Notes under the pieces: generated by a model
Databases searched by the model: none
What the model saw: the letters and a program-made list of their open reading frames with translations, nothing else
What the model was told of the DNA's origin: nothing
From: Chitinophaga caeni
GTDB lineage: Bacteria > Bacteroidota > Bacteroidia > Chitinophagales > Chitinophagaceae
NCBI RefSeq assembly: GCF_002557795.1
Contig: NZ_CP023777.1
Coordinates: 5,215,922 to 5,279,921, forward strand
Direction of reading: 5' to 3'
Length of the DNA: 64,000 nucleotides
Shown here: positions 9,831-21,312 of the stretch, piece after piece
How the letters are laid out: every line of letters starts with the position of its first letter
Numbering within the stretch: position 1 is the stretch's first letter
Position numbers and translations under genes: made by a program

Positions 9831-10360
9831 TTTGTTTTTCCTTTTATGTCCTACTCGTTTGGCTTTTCGGTGTCGCCCTATTTTTTTAATGGTCGCTGGT
9901 CTCCATTTTTAAAAATAAAGGATTGTTGTCAGTCGTGAATGACTGTCAAGACGTGTCAAAATGAAAAGTCGGTGGCTCTCTTGTCTGCCACTTTCCGTTG
10001 TAGCGTGTCGTTTTAAACTTGCCCATGACTCTCAAATATACGCTATAATCTTCTACCTGGAAACATACCAAGTACCTTTCTACCAACCTCTATAAACAGT
10101 TGTTTTTAAGTGTGTTGCTTTGGTATTGCGAGACTTTTTATATTGCCTATTTTGTATAACTTCCTTAGATTTTTTTTGCAAGTAATACAAAATGCGCAAT
10201 ATAGAAGTTGTTGATTTTTCTGGTTTTGACTTTCGGGACGGCTGGCACAATGATGCTCCAATCATTTGGATGGATTTCAAATACCTAGAGCTTTTTGTAA
10301 CTTGGTAAAGGCAGGGATTTTACATAATTCGTAACTTATTAAATAAAAGATGTCCCTACT
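9831..10360. other. Island edge, no convincing gene
   Basis: AT-rich sequence with short GC-rich inverted segments. The only candidate is a 38-codon frame at 10192-10308 on the plus strand (MRNIEVVDFSGFDFRDGWHN at its start); it has coding-like residues but no known relative or clear ribosome-binding site. A minus-strand frame over the same bases (10080-10280) is Lys/Arg-rich and unconvincing. Confidence 0.4.
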
Positions 10361-17551: not shown

Positions 17552-18139
17552 TCAGGATGATTTCTTCTCTACGAGGGGCGCGGTAATTTTATTCAATTGC
17601 TTTACTTTTTCAGCAAAATCGCCCTTCAACCGCTCCCTTAACTGGTTTAAATTATGTAATAATTCATTGATGCCATCGGGCAGGGAATCTTGCAATACTT
17701 CCTTGATCCTTTTGGCAATGGTAGGCGACTTACCATTAGTTGATATAGCAATTTTTAAATTTCCCTTTGTAACGACGGAGCCAAGGTAAAAATCGCATAG
17801 CTCCGGTGTATCGGCTACATTGATCAGCACTTTGCTTGCCTTGGCTTTTTCCCAAACGCATTGATTTAATTCACGATCATTTGTTGCGGCAATAACCAGT
17901 TGTTTTCCGAAAACATCTCCACAACTGAATGGCTTTTGTACCAATTCCACCCCGGAAGAGCGTTGGGCCAAGGCTTCCAGCTCCGGTTTGAAAAAAGTAG
18001 CCACCACGGTAATCCTGGCAGCAGGAGCATTTTGCAGCATGGCATTGACTTTCTCGAAGCCAATATTCCCCCCACCAACTACCAATACCTGGAGTTGTTC
18101 CAATTTGAAAAATACCGGGAACAAATGATTTTCATCCAT
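17552..18139 (-). CDS. Precorrin-2 dehydrogenase / sirohydrochlorin ferrochelatase domain
   Basis: 195 residues. The Rossmann domain (about 10-115) starts with VLVVGGGNIGFEKVNAML (NAD-binding GGGNIG), followed by VIAATNDRELNQCVWEKAK and VNVADTPELCDFYLGSVV-type sequence, the CysG N-terminal/Met8p pattern; the helical C-terminal part continues to EKVKQLNKI. It oxidises precorrin-2 and can insert iron to make sirohaem. The start codon shares one base with the stop of the upstream methyltransferase gene (TAATG), so the two are translationally coupled. Together they supply sirohaem for the reductase encoded upstream. The fused CysG form of enterobacteria is split here into two proteins. Confidence 0.9.
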   Translation of the reverse strand: MDENHLFPVFFKLEQLQVLVVGGGNIGFEKVNAMLQNAPAARITVVATFFKPELEALAQRSSGVELVQKPFSCGDVFGKQLVIAATNDRELNQCVWEKAKASKVLINVADTPELCDFYLGSVVTKGNLKIAISTNGKSPTIAKRIKEVLQDSLPDGINELLHNLNQLRERLKGDFAEKVKQLNKITAPLVEKKSS

Positions 18140-18915
18140 TAGACAGCAATTTTATAATCAGTTGCCAACTTGGCCTGTAGCGATTGAAATGCTTCATGAA
18201 ACCGAACAACCTCACCTACGATAATAATCGCGGGGTTTGATAAATTTTTCTCTTGGGCAATCTTCTGTAAATCTGATGCGATACCGACACCGACTTGCTG
18301 GTTATCTAAAGAACCGTTCTGTATGATTGCGGCGGGTGTATGACCTGCTCCCAAGTTACTATAAATTTGACCAATTTCCGCCAGTTTATTCATTCCCATC
18401 AGGATGACAACAGTCGTGTTGGCTTGGACAGCAAATTCTAAATCGCGGGATAATTTTCCATCCTTTGTAGTTCCGGTGATCACCCAAAATCCTTCGCTCA
18501 CATTCCTGGCCGTAACTGGTATCTGGTTAAGCCCCGGTACGGAAATAGCGCTGCTGATACCCGGTACTACTTCGGTTTGAATATTAAACTGTTGCGCGAA
18601 AGCAACCTCTTCTTGCCCGCGACCAAAAACGAAGGGATCACCGCCTTTCAGGCGCACCACGTTTCCGAAGCTCAAAGCATATTGAACGATCATCCTGTTG
18701 ATTTCGTCCTGGGAATATACATGTGTACCGGCCCTTTTGCCAACGAAACGTTTCAGGCAATTTTGCGGTGCATGTTCTAATAACTCGTTATTCGCCAACG
18801 CATCATATAAAATAACGCGGGCTTCTTGTATGGCCTTCAATCCTTTCAAGGTGATTAATTCCGGATCGCCCGGACCGGCACCTACCAAGGTTAATTTCGG
18901 TTGTATTCTTTGCAT
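18139..18915 (-). CDS. cobA: Uroporphyrinogen-III C-methyltransferase
   Basis: 258 residues. Transfers two methyl groups from SAM to uroporphyrinogen III, giving precorrin-2. The signature LTLVGAGPGDPELITLKG is at about residues 9-26, and VRLKGGDPFVFGRGQEE at about 84-100 is the second conserved box; VVPGISSAISVPGLNQIPVT at about 117-136 is the third. Typical length for a stand-alone SUMT. It lies 47 bases downstream of the sulfite reductase gene on the same strand and overlaps the next gene by one base. With its neighbours it provides the sirohaem cofactor, so it is likely under the same cysteine attenuator. Confidence 0.95.
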   Translation of the reverse strand: MQRIQPKLTLVGAGPGDPELITLKGLKAIQEARVILYDALANNELLEHAPQNCLKRFVGKRAGTHVYSQDEINRMIVQYALSFGNVVRLKGGDPFVFGRGQEEVAFAQQFNIQTEVVPGISSAISVPGLNQIPVTARNVSEGFWVITGTTKDGKLSRDLEFAVQANTTVVILMGMNKLAEIGQIYSNLGAGHTPAAIIQNGSLDNQQVGVGIASDLQKIAQEKNLSNPAIIIVGEVVRFHEAFQSLQAKLATDYKIAV

Positions 18916-18962: not shown

Positions 18963-21077
18963 TTAAGCATTTACGGTTTGTGCTGTTTTATTAGCGCGGT
19001 ACTGTTGAGATGCTTTATAAAATTCCTTGGCTTGTTGAAAATATTGTTCTGCAAATGCAGCTGATGGTTCTTGTTTGTTGATCTCCAAAACCATATCCTT
19101 GAAATTTGAAACGGGGAATCGCCTGGTTTCTTCGAAATGTTTTTCAAAATCATTGATGATGCTGATCTGTGTATTGCAGCTAACACCATCATCCAGCAAT
19201 AAAGCTTTTGCCGATTGTACGAAACAGGAATATGCATGATAAATCGCATCGGCGTAAGCCCCGGCGGTAATCGATTCGGTTGCCAAAAGCAACTTTTCTT
19301 CCGCCTCGTATAGCAAGGTTGCAATCAGGTCAATCACGACGCCCGCACATTCCCCAACGCCAATAGCGGTTGCAAAATCATTCGCTTGTCCCCAATCGAT
19401 GAAGTCTTCATCCTGTAAAGTGGTTAAATCAGCCAACGGTTTTAACAGGTCATAAAAATATCTTTCGCCACGACGATCGTAATAATCGTTGAACAGCTCA
19501 CCTTCCTGCAAATTGGTAGCATAATCATTCAAAACACTTCTCAATACATCCGGTCCGCGTTTGCTTGGCACTTTCAACACTTTATCTGCCACCCTTCCGG
19601 CGCCGTTTCCCATGGTTCCACCGCCCAGCAAAACCTGCAATGCCGGCAACACTTTACCCTTGCTCTTCATCGATGAACCGTGGAAACCGATATTAGCCAT
19701 TCCATGTTGACCGCATGAGTTCATACATCCCGAAATCTTGATCTTGATATCGGTGTTATAAATTAATCCCGGGTATTCTTCCTGGATCACCTGCTCCAAC
19801 GCCACCGCGATGCCTGTACTGCTGGAAATACCGAGGTTACAAGTATCGGTACCGGGACAAGCCGTGATATCGGCTACACTGTTAAAGCCGGGTGCTGCCA
19901 AGCCGACAGCTTCCAATTGACTGTATACATAAGCCAGGTGTTCCCCGCGGATGAATTTCAACAACAATCCTTGGTTCACGGTTACCCGGACATCATCGGC
20001 AATTACGGGTTGTAATTTCTCAATTAGGAGACGGGAAATATCGGAAGAAATATTCCCCAGCAAAACGCGCACGTAAGCACCGAAGAAACCCGCTTGTTTT
20101 TGCTCGAAAACATTGGTCTTTTTCCACTGCTCGAATTGTTGGGGATTTTCTATTGTGTATGCAGGTAAAGCACCGGGCGTTTCACTCGGTTCCGTAGCAA
20201 TCCATGCATCAGCATCGATGGGTACCACCTTATTTTTTACTGCTGTAAACTCTTCTTTTACCAATTCCTCGAATGCTTCCATCCCGATTTTCTGTACCAA
20301 GAATTTCATCCTGGCCTTATGGCGGCTAGAACGTTCGCCATGACGGTCAAAAACACGCAACACACTTTCGATATAAGGAATCAGTTGATCAGCCGGTAAA
20401 AACTCGAAGGCCACCTTTGCCAATTGTGGTTGGGCGCCCAATCCCCCGGCAATCATTACTTTGAATCCCCTCACTTCCTTGCCGTCAATAAGCTGGATTT
20501 TAGGAATCACACCAACATCATGCATATATGCAAACGCGGTATCCTTATCAGAAGAAGAGAAAGACATTTTGAATTTACGACCCATATCTTGGCAGATTGG
20601 GTTCCTCAAGAAATAACGGAAAGCTGCATCCGCGTATGGAGTTACATCAAATGGCTCATCCGGATCGATGCCCGCAGCATCCGAAGCCGTAATATTTCTC
20701 ACGGTATTACCGCAAGCTTCGCGGATCGTGATATCATCTTGCTCCAGTTGGCTCCACAATTCGGGCGTTCTATCCAGGCTCACGAAATGCACCTGTATGT
20801 CTTGGCGGGTAGTTAAATGCAAATTCCCGGTAGAAAACTCATCCGAAATATCCGAGATCCTTTTCCATTGCGCGAGGGTCATTTTACCGTAGGGCAACTT
20901 AATGCGCACCATTTGAACACCTGGTTGACGTTGACCGTAAACGCCGCGTGCCAGGCGTAGGCTGCGGAATTTCTCATCAGGGATTTTCCCTTCGCGGAAC
21001 AGGCGTATTTTCTGTTCCAATTCGATAATATCTCTTTCGACGATCGGATTTTCGAGTTCTGTTCTGAAGCTTTGCAT
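18963..21077 (-). CDS. Sirohaem 4Fe-4S nitrite/sulfite reductase with C-terminal HEPN-like domain
   Basis: 704 residues. Two ferredoxin-like/sirohaem half-domains occur at about 45-300 and 320-560. The iron-sulfur/sirohaem cysteines are C407, C413 (CPGTDTC) and C451, C455 (CMNSC), in exact C-x5-C...C-x3-C spacing. Sirohaem-contact arginines lie in STGNLHLTTRQDIQVHF and EACGNTVRNI. About residues 585-700 form an all-helical extension (EEKLLLATESITAGAYADAI, YHAYSCFVQSAKALLL) like HEPN domains, lacking the RxxxxH nuclease motif. It reduces sulfite to sulfide for cysteine synthesis, or nitrite. The cysteine-codon leader upstream and the absence of nitrate genes favour sulfite. It is first of an operon with cobA and the precorrin-2 dehydrogenase. 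Confidence 0.92.
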   Translation of the reverse strand: MQSFRTELENPIVERDIIELEQKIRLFREGKIPDEKFRSLRLARGVYGQRQPGVQMVRIKLPYGKMTLAQWKRISDISDEFSTGNLHLTTRQDIQVHFVSLDRTPELWSQLEQDDITIREACGNTVRNITASDAAGIDPDEPFDVTPYADAAFRYFLRNPICQDMGRKFKMSFSSSDKDTAFAYMHDVGVIPKIQLIDGKEVRGFKVMIAGGLGAQPQLAKVAFEFLPADQLIPYIESVLRVFDRHGERSSRHKARMKFLVQKIGMEAFEELVKEEFTAVKNKVVPIDADAWIATEPSETPGALPAYTIENPQQFEQWKKTNVFEQKQAGFFGAYVRVLLGNISSDISRLLIEKLQPVIADDVRVTVNQGLLLKFIRGEHLAYVYSQLEAVGLAAPGFNSVADITACPGTDTCNLGISSSTGIAVALEQVIQEEYPGLIYNTDIKIKISGCMNSCGQHGMANIGFHGSSMKSKGKVLPALQVLLGGGTMGNGAGRVADKVLKVPSKRGPDVLRSVLNDYATNLQEGELFNDYYDRRGERYFYDLLKPLADLTTLQDEDFIDWGQANDFATAIGVGECAGVVIDLIATLLYEAEEKLLLATESITAGAYADAIYHAYSCFVQSAKALLLDDGVSCNTQISIINDFEKHFEETRRFPVSNFKDMVLEINKQEPSAAFAEQYFQQAKEFYKASQQYRANKTAQTVNA

Positions 21078-21121
21078 TGTATTAATAAGTTGATGAAAGC
21101 GAATAATTAATAATTGAGCAT

Positions 21122-21147
21122 AAAAAAACCCCTGGCTATTGCCGGGG
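21122..21147 (-). terminator. Attenuator terminator of the sulfite-reductase operon
   Basis: On the minus strand CCCCGGC-AATA-GCCAGGGG forms a 7-bp GC stem with one bulged A, followed by seven Ts. It lies 45 bases before the reductase ATG and 51 bases after the leader peptide stop, so it can only act on the operon's own leader RNA. Confidence 0.85.
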
Positions 21148-21197
21148 GCCCCATCGCGAGGAACGTTGTCAACCGTCCATCTAATACATAAGGTCCC

Positions 21198-21230
21198 CTA
21201 TTCTGTTGACATACAACAGCACATCTTCAT
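21198..21230 (-). CDS. Cys-rich attenuator leader peptide (MKMCCCMSTE)
   Basis: Ten codons and a TAG stop: Met-Lys-Met-Cys-Cys-Cys-Met-Ser-Thr-Glu. The three Cys codons (TGC TGT TGT, 21221-21213) form the 5' arm of a hairpin whose other arm is CAACAG later in the same frame. The segment GTCAAC (21210-21205) can instead pair with GTTGAC at 21173-21168, giving the alternative fold needed for attenuation, and the terminator follows at 21147. A ribosome stalled on Cys codons under cysteine shortage would break the first stem. TAGGAT lies about ten bases before the ATG. The mechanism is inferred from layout, which parallels amino-acid attenuators; the product itself probably has no function. Confidence 0.75.
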   Translation of the reverse strand: MKMCCCMSTE

Positions 21231-21280
21231 GCAAATATTGATCCTATTACCCATAATCCTATAGATTTTGTAGAGTAATA

Positions 21281-21312
21281 CAAAGGTAGGCATCGAGATG
21301 ATAATTCCAAAA
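21281..21312 (-). promoter_or_regulatory. Promoter of the sulfite-reductase operon
   Basis: TTTTGG (near 21307-21312) and TACCTTTG (21281-21288) on the minus strand with about 18 bases between them match the Bacteroidota -33/-7 pattern. Transcription starting near 21274 would give a leader of about 200 bases holding the Cys peptide and terminator. Confidence 0.75.

Follow-up and report, generated by a model that had tools for sequence, protein, structure and literature searches.

Results

A siroheme reductase operon with a promoter and an operator-like box

The window, by which we mean the whole stretch of 64,000 nt of Chitinophaga caeni DNA that was analysed, carries on its minus strand a three-gene unit encoding a siroheme nitrite/sulfite reductase (18963..21077; Pfam PF01077, PF03460 and PF05168), a uroporphyrinogen-III C-methyltransferase of siroheme synthesis (18139..18915; TIGR01469 above cut-off, PF00590) and a precorrin-2 dehydrogenase / siroheme synthase N-terminal domain protein (17552..18139; TIGR01470 above cut-off, PF13241 and PF14824). 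The unit is a siroheme sulfite/nitrite reductase operon. Used as a query, the reductase protein has a single match in the C. caeni genome, which is this gene, and its sequence relatives in the PDB are NirA and plant-type nitrite/sulfite reductases. Its closest relatives are Chitinophaga records, most of them at 73-78% identity, and the upstream regions of some of these records are identical to those of other genus genomes that we searched. The C-terminal HEPN domain of the reductase (PF05168) scores 23.6 bits, barely above the cut-off of 22. Elsewhere in the window, also on the minus strand, the cis-regulatory RNA motif DUF805 (RF03081) is matched at 9844-9911 with 78.3 bits.

All parts of the putative attenuator lie on the minus strand. 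The sequence-only reading had placed a promoter of the Bacteroidota type before the leader, and we agree: TTTG (21311-21308) and TACCTTTG (21288-21281), together spanning 21281..21311, conform to what we take to be the consensus of the phylum. In the relatives of the genus, too, the TTTG of the -7 box is found just 5' of the leader. The inferred transcription start is overlapped by an operator-like inverted repeat, TATTACTCTACAAAATCTATAGG (21258..21280, minus strand), which matches the genome exactly. A pattern for this box, written after the loci had been seen and fitted to them, is found at 59 of 79 distinct genus loci and at 21 of 49 others compared with 2 of 343 control upstreams, and these two control matches are the target site itself and a gene resembling cysD. 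A different box pattern, used when the leaders were collected, missed one genus locus (L099), which was added from the leader counts.

Inverted repeats of the form AGTCTAC...GTAGGG adjoin promoters of sulfur genes, and similar boxes are present in the C. caeni genome before a metH-like gene (seen by eye; L108) and before cysH (L176). A gene for an Rrf2 regulator (PF02082) is directly upstream of cysH in this genome. The matches of the Rrf2 protein to curated NCBIfam models below superfamily level, CymR included, are all under their cut-offs. The inverted repeat is possibly the operator of this Rrf2-family regulator. In the 330 nt upstream of cysH in the same genome we found no ATG frame with at least two Cys codons, and one TTG frame with two.

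A cysteine-rich leader frame

The leader frame runs from ATGGGTAAT to the stop codon TAG (21254-21198, minus strand) and reads MGNRINICMKMCCCMSTE, with four Cys. Three of the Cys codons, TGC TGT TGT, are consecutive at 21213..21221 and are the regulatory candidates, retained among relatives; a further TGC is at 21233-21231. The leader had been read from the sequence as the ten residues MKMCCCMSTE; this sequence and its three Cys codons are present, but they make up only the second half of the longer frame. As the relatives have an upstream in-frame start in common, with the first ATG after the -7 box opening Met-Gly in 60 of the 63 leader-bearing genus loci, the leader is most likely MGNRINICMKMCCCMSTE. 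Its ATG is 26 nt past the -7 box.

Cysteine accounts for 180 of 1426 residues (12.6%) in the 61 distinct leaders of 62 genus loci, over which TGT is used 122 times and TGC 61 times. The leader peptides share the Met-Gly start and the Cys cluster and otherwise vary strongly in sequence and length. This variation keeps the frame: a length divisible by three is found for 39 of 39 and 44 of 45 gap runs in the leader alignments (83 of 84 in total), compared with 51 of 135 and 20 of 101 (71 of 236 in total) in the RNA downstream of the leader. Since the gaps come in multiples of three, the leader appears to be selected as a translated frame, and sequence comparison thus argues that it is translated.

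Hairpins of the leader RNA

The Cys codons form part of a 6-bp hairpin, CTGTTG/CAACAG, in which they pair with the codons that come next (21203..21219; arms 21219-21214 and 21208-21203, minus strand). A stem made from the Cys codons, as proposed from the sequence alone, is therefore present in the window fold, where this putative pause hairpin does not overlap the antiterminator strand. Further downstream is an intrinsic terminator, CCCCCGGC-AATA-GCCAGGGG followed by seven T (21122..21148, minus strand; -12.0 kcal/mol), with its hairpin at 21148-21129 and TTTTTTT at 21128-21122. The seven-pair stem, which had been noted from the sequence together with the seven Ts, contains one C.A mismatch, and the distance to the reductase ATG at 21077 is 44 nt (45 in the sequence-only reading). 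The pairing of this terminator is conserved in relatives; a simple terminator scan did not list it.

An alternative pairing of GTCAAC (21210-21205) with GTTGAC (21173-21168) had also been suggested. Both strands are present, but their pairing occurs in none of the window folds and was not seen as a common feature when we looked for it by eye in relatives; we rejected it as the working antiterminator. The antiterminator that relatives support is formed instead by GGGGACCTTAT (21188..21198, minus strand), whose first nucleotide is also the final one of the stop codon and which has equivalents in relatives, and ATGGGGCCCCC (21144..21154), which overlaps the 5' arm of the terminator; in the window fold, 21198-21188 pairs with 21154-21144.

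In single-sequence folding the energy of the attenuator stretch is unremarkable (z of -1.28 on the plus strand and -0.78 on the minus strand). No Rfam family matches the window leader at its gathering score, and at E up to 1 there are only two chance-level matches, one of 18.0 bits where the gathering score is 72 and one of 12.4 bits where it is 50. The case that the element is more than chance comes from sequence comparison and not from fold energy.

Cys codons and terminator among Chitinophaga genomes

Conservation of the Cys codons and of the terminator in relatives had been named beforehand as a test of the attenuator reading. The reductase was found in all 79 genus genomes searched, and 78 upstream regions were analysed, leaving out one genome (G434) in which the reductase gene is broken into three pieces. 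Of these 78 loci, 63 keep both a leader of two or more Cys codons and a terminator after it. An automated test for leader plus terminator passes 62 of the 78, of which 61 are true and one is a chance frame (L102); two of the 63 counted loci, L105 and L116, do not pass it, so that the two sets overlap in 61. On control genes the test passes 2 of 181, one of them being this site itself under an alternative start in another genome. The 181 control genes come from 20 loci (one of Flavihumibacter, the rest of Chitinophaga) and from the window, and are not independent because neighbouring genes recur between loci. Ten of 165 loci, which had no recognisable reductase start, were left out (L021, L071, L074, L075, L162, L166, L167, L170, L171 and L173).

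The remaining 15 of the 78 genus loci have no usable leader. Eight of them also lack, by the criterion used, a terminator after the box (L006, L097, L098, L100, L103, L104, L119 and L144). In the other seven (L008, L102, L130, L141, L143, L146 and L148) the terminator is kept and the leader is damaged, Cys-poor or read-through.

Three RNA subtypes with one pairing logic

The leader RNAs fall into three subtypes that follow one logic, in which a strand near the stop codon pairs with the 5' arm of the terminator. In the subtype of the window this strand starts at the stop codon, in the second subtype it spans the stop codon, and in the third it lies in the last codons, as in GCG-GAA-CGC-GTG-TAG against TATACG...CCTCCGC.

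Pairing is well kept across the alignments. In A1, 92.2% of cells are paired in the terminator and 76.0% in the pause hairpin and antiterminator, compared with at most 71.8% and 45.1% in slid versions; in A2 the corresponding values are 98.7% and 84.4% against at most 74.2% and 54.3%, and in A3 the pause hairpin and antiterminator have 94.0% against at most 47.3%. The structures scored came from alignment members, which by itself favours them over the slid versions in all these comparisons. Helix 1 of A1, which corresponds to the hairpin of the Cys codons, has 86.6% of its cells paired and two-sided changes in 3 of 10 pairs.

Covarying stems, which the sequence-only reading had suggested looking for, were found in part. 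For A1, both the terminator and the pause/antiterminator set have covariation scores above all 500 shuffles. For the pause/antiterminator of A2, two-sided cells number 16 against 7.4 in shuffles, but two-sided pairs, 4 against 3.5, are close to the shuffled value. In A3 the antiterminator pairs have no change between standard pairs, and the covariation score of 0.077 does not exceed the values of up to 0.090 in slid versions. As judged from these alignments, covariation in the leader RNA is real but limited.

A covariance model was built from one subtype (A2, 23 sequences, which match by construction) and used to search the genus. The 41 strongest matches listed (E up to 4.5e-5) are all at the reductase, and the window's own match has an E of 0.0015. 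Eight weaker matches elsewhere, which we inspected, look like plain terminators at gene ends.

Predicted dependence of folding on ribosome position

In the minimum free energy (MFE) fold of the window with a ribosome placed at the Cys codons (footprints of 9 and 12 nt), the antiterminator forms and disrupts the stem of the terminator. Placing the ribosome at the stop codon gives the terminator at footprints of 9 and 12 nt, and at 15 nt the terminator in a bulged register. The MFE fold of the window RNA without a ribosome also contains the antiterminator, and therefore read-through would be expected in the absence of translation, in contrast to the classical default.

Equilibrium folding was applied to 63 full leaders, one per distinct genus sequence and without L099, a set that differs from the 63 counted loci. 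For this folding the terminators of L001, L014, L105 and L116 were set by hand, as the search had found no terminator at L105 and an incorrect one at L116. Without a ribosome the probability of the terminator is 0.44 in the window, compared with a median of 0.96 over the 63 leaders. A switch with ribosome position is predicted in 11 of the 63, and mostly the terminator wins wherever the ribosome is. This outcome speaks against a switch that is purely thermodynamic, and most relatives therefore need co-transcriptional kinetics in the model.

We then folded transcripts ending in the terminator loop, the point at which the classical model has the choice fall, and asked with what probability the 5' arm of the terminator is paired upstream; this end point was chosen after the equilibrium result was known. 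Wilcoxon values for this comparison ignore relatedness and were set aside. The median is 0.77 with the ribosome at the Cys codons and 0.075 with the ribosome at the stop codon, compared with 0.49 for shuffled upstream sequence. The pairing differs by more than 0.3 between the Cys-stalled and the stop-codon ribosome in 56 of the 63 leaders, and 36 of the 63 clearly beat their shuffles, with no more than 3 of 60 shuffles reaching the same value. At this end point the window is one of the poorest leaders, with 0.52 when stalled and 0.48 at the stop codon, and 50 of its 60 shuffles are as high. Taking the MFE folds of the window and these transcripts over the genus together, a mutually exclusive antiterminator set by ribosome position is predicted in the folding models.

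Occurrence beyond the genus Chitinophaga

In a sample of the phylum, a reductase was found at E up to 1e-60 in 59 of 395 genomes, and 49 of the 58 non-own loci were read. Two lengths and two Cys thresholds were used (29 loci with 700 nt and at least two Cys; 20 loci with about 1.1-1.3 kb and at least three Cys), so that the tally is not one uniform count. By these criteria a Cys frame with a terminator is present in 6 of 10 loci of family f3, in 2 of 4 of f2, and in all four of f26, f27, f42 and f45, each of which is represented by one genome. It was found in none of the loci read of f1 outside the genus (0 of 2), f5 (0 of 20), f8 (0 of 4), f10 (0 of 3) and f17 (0 of 2). Frames at -607 in L201 and at -638 in L206 passed the Cys threshold; we set them aside as probable chance frames.

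Picked by eye, Cys leaders with their own terminators are found in other Chitinophagaceae (L013, L014, L015, L016 and L022) and at two Mucilaginibacter loci (L065 and L070). The leaders of other families are unlike that of the window in sequence and length, and the order of Cys run, stop codon, terminator and reductase is unchanged. At one such locus (L234) a bulged helix of about 12 pairs joins the stop region to the 5' side of the terminator. A locus of f2 (L229) has, ahead of a cysH-like gene, a frame whose last codons are seven Cys codons; it lies roughly 1050 to 850 nt from the end of the region analysed there and has no terminator by the criterion.

In Pontibacter, a SAM-I riboswitch (RF00162) stands directly before a frame of 35-39 residues upstream of the sulfite reductase gene at 6 of 6 loci (SAM-I plus Cys frame at L055:4373-4474, L056:4425-4526, L058:4380-4482, L060:4320-4424, L062:4400-4502 and L063:4390-4492). 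The frame ends in a run of 5-10 Cys codons and two residues. In each of the six loci this first Cys frame has no terminator by the criterion used, and four of the six have a second frame with at least three Cys before the reductase gene. It is possible that the arrangement is a tandem sensor of SAM and cysteine.

Discussion

Here, we have described a conserved leader before the siroheme reductase operon of C. caeni, and sequence comparison together with folding models makes us confident that it is a ribosome-mediated, cysteine-specific transcription attenuator. The earlier proposal of such attenuation is supported by the conserved Cys codons and terminator, by a leader that keeps its frame, and by the pairing of the stop region with the 5' arm of the terminator. 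The operon genes fit sulfite reduction and so would serve the amino acid that would be sensed. That sulfite rather than nitrite is the substrate is what we infer from the Cys leader and from the box that the operon has in common with cysteine genes.

The transcription start, translation of the leader, stalling and the response to cysteine would fit together as follows. RNA polymerase would start about 20 nt before the leader ATG, and a ribosome would follow through MGNRINICMKMCCCMSTE; the hairpin formed by the Cys codons probably makes the polymerase pause and wait for the ribosome. If Cys-tRNA is sufficient, the ribosome would reach the stop codon and cover the sequence just after it, the terminator would form, and transcription would stop short of the reductase gene. 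Under a shortage of Cys-tRNA, the ribosome would stall on the Cys codons and leave the stop-codon region free to pair with the 5' arm of the terminator, and with the antiterminator paired, transcription would continue into the genes for sulfite reductase and siroheme synthesis.

The classical ribosome-mediated attenuators of amino-acid operons are those of trp, his, leu, ilv, phe and thr in Proteobacteria. The leader described here is like them in having a short frame with codons for the product, a hairpin over those codons, an antiterminator and an intrinsic terminator. It differs from them in that cysteine would be sensed, that the host belongs to Bacteroidota, that an operator-like box lies over the inferred start, and that the antiterminator strand is on or beside the stop codon and, in the window, does not overlap the Cys-codon hairpin. 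Firmicutes T-boxes are a further form of leader-RNA control of amino-acid genes. SAM-I riboswitches (RF00162) and T-boxes share with our leader the control of sulfur or amino-acid genes by a leader RNA, whereas the leader of the window has no Rfam match and sensing is by translation in the proposed model.

Outside Proteobacteria, a trp attenuator is described for Actinobacteria (PMC1262725). It had been stated that Cys attenuators, too, are known from Actinobacteria. Cys leaders are indeed described there (PMC1262725; Canestrari 2020, as cited in later papers), and they resemble ours in being short frames ahead of cys genes with runs of Cys codons close to the stop. According to Seliverstov 2005 (PMC1262725), however, they have no conserved terminator hairpins, and those of mycobacteria, Mycobacterium smegmatis among them, are described in PMC13236596 and PMC9031893 as acting on translation. 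These precedents, and the first Cys frames of the six Pontibacter loci with no terminator by our criterion, would fit a leader that acts through translation or a Rho-type mechanism as in mycobacteria, with the hairpin being incidental. We consider this improbable, since 63 genus loci have, after the leader, a hairpin that ends in a T-rich tail and keeps its pairing, and the antiterminator strand is on or near the stop codon. In the polycysteine leaders of Actinobacteria no conserved terminator comes after the Cys frame, and here a terminator is present. The mycobacterial leaders are reported as leaderless and translational; the one studied here has a terminator/antiterminator pair, and its ATG, 26 nt past the -7 box, would not be at the very 5' end of the transcript if transcription starts where we predict.

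The Cys codons could also be a by-product of RNA structure, with a metabolite-binding RNA or a transcription factor as the sole means of control. That these codons form part of a hairpin, that the operator-like box overlaps the inferred start and that an Rrf2 gene lies beside cysH are in keeping with such control. Gaps that keep the leader in frame, the lack of an Rfam family at gathering score, and the Cys runs set in unrelated RNA sequence in the leaders of other families speak against it, and we regard it as very unlikely. Coding constraint and a promoter directly before the frame would equally be expected of a functional small Cys-rich peptide, for example a metal-binding one, with the hairpin merely its own terminator. 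The chance of this is, in our judgement, slighter still, as the peptides vary strongly beyond the Met-Gly start and the Cys cluster, the frames are just before the reductase gene, and pairing connects the stop region to the arm of the terminator.

For ribosome-mediated cysteine attenuation in Bacteroidota, a search of the literature by title and opening of the abstract found no earlier description, in agreement with what the sequence-only reading had supposed; the search covered open papers without their supplements, and Lopatovskaya 2010 may cover the phylum. A survey of 2010 reports leader-peptide systems as then demonstrated, as far as its authors knew, only in Proteobacteria and Actinobacteria, besides its own case in Firmicutes (PMC2965389). 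For Flavobacterium psychrophilum, PMC9723704 mentions clues for leader-peptide attenuation before amino-acid operons. The leader described here is well supported by comparison as a cysteine-specific, terminator-based attenuator in Bacteroidota, and it probably recurs across the phylum. We lean slightly towards a still wider view, in which cysteine-sensing attenuation over sulfite reduction is phylum-wide, with unrelated leaders in many families, an Rrf2/CymR-like operator layer in Chitinophagaceae and a tandem with SAM-I in Pontibacter.

With a conserved, terminator-based Cys attenuator, transcription-translation coupling could be put to a direct test in Bacteroidota, a phylum in which ribosomes mostly do without Shine-Dalgarno sequences, and the 15 loci of the genus that have no usable leader are a natural experiment. 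If the tandem arrangement in Pontibacter is real, one transcript would read both methionine and cysteine status. If the proposed attenuation is true, it would account for the way in which sulfur assimilation is kept off while cysteine is abundant.
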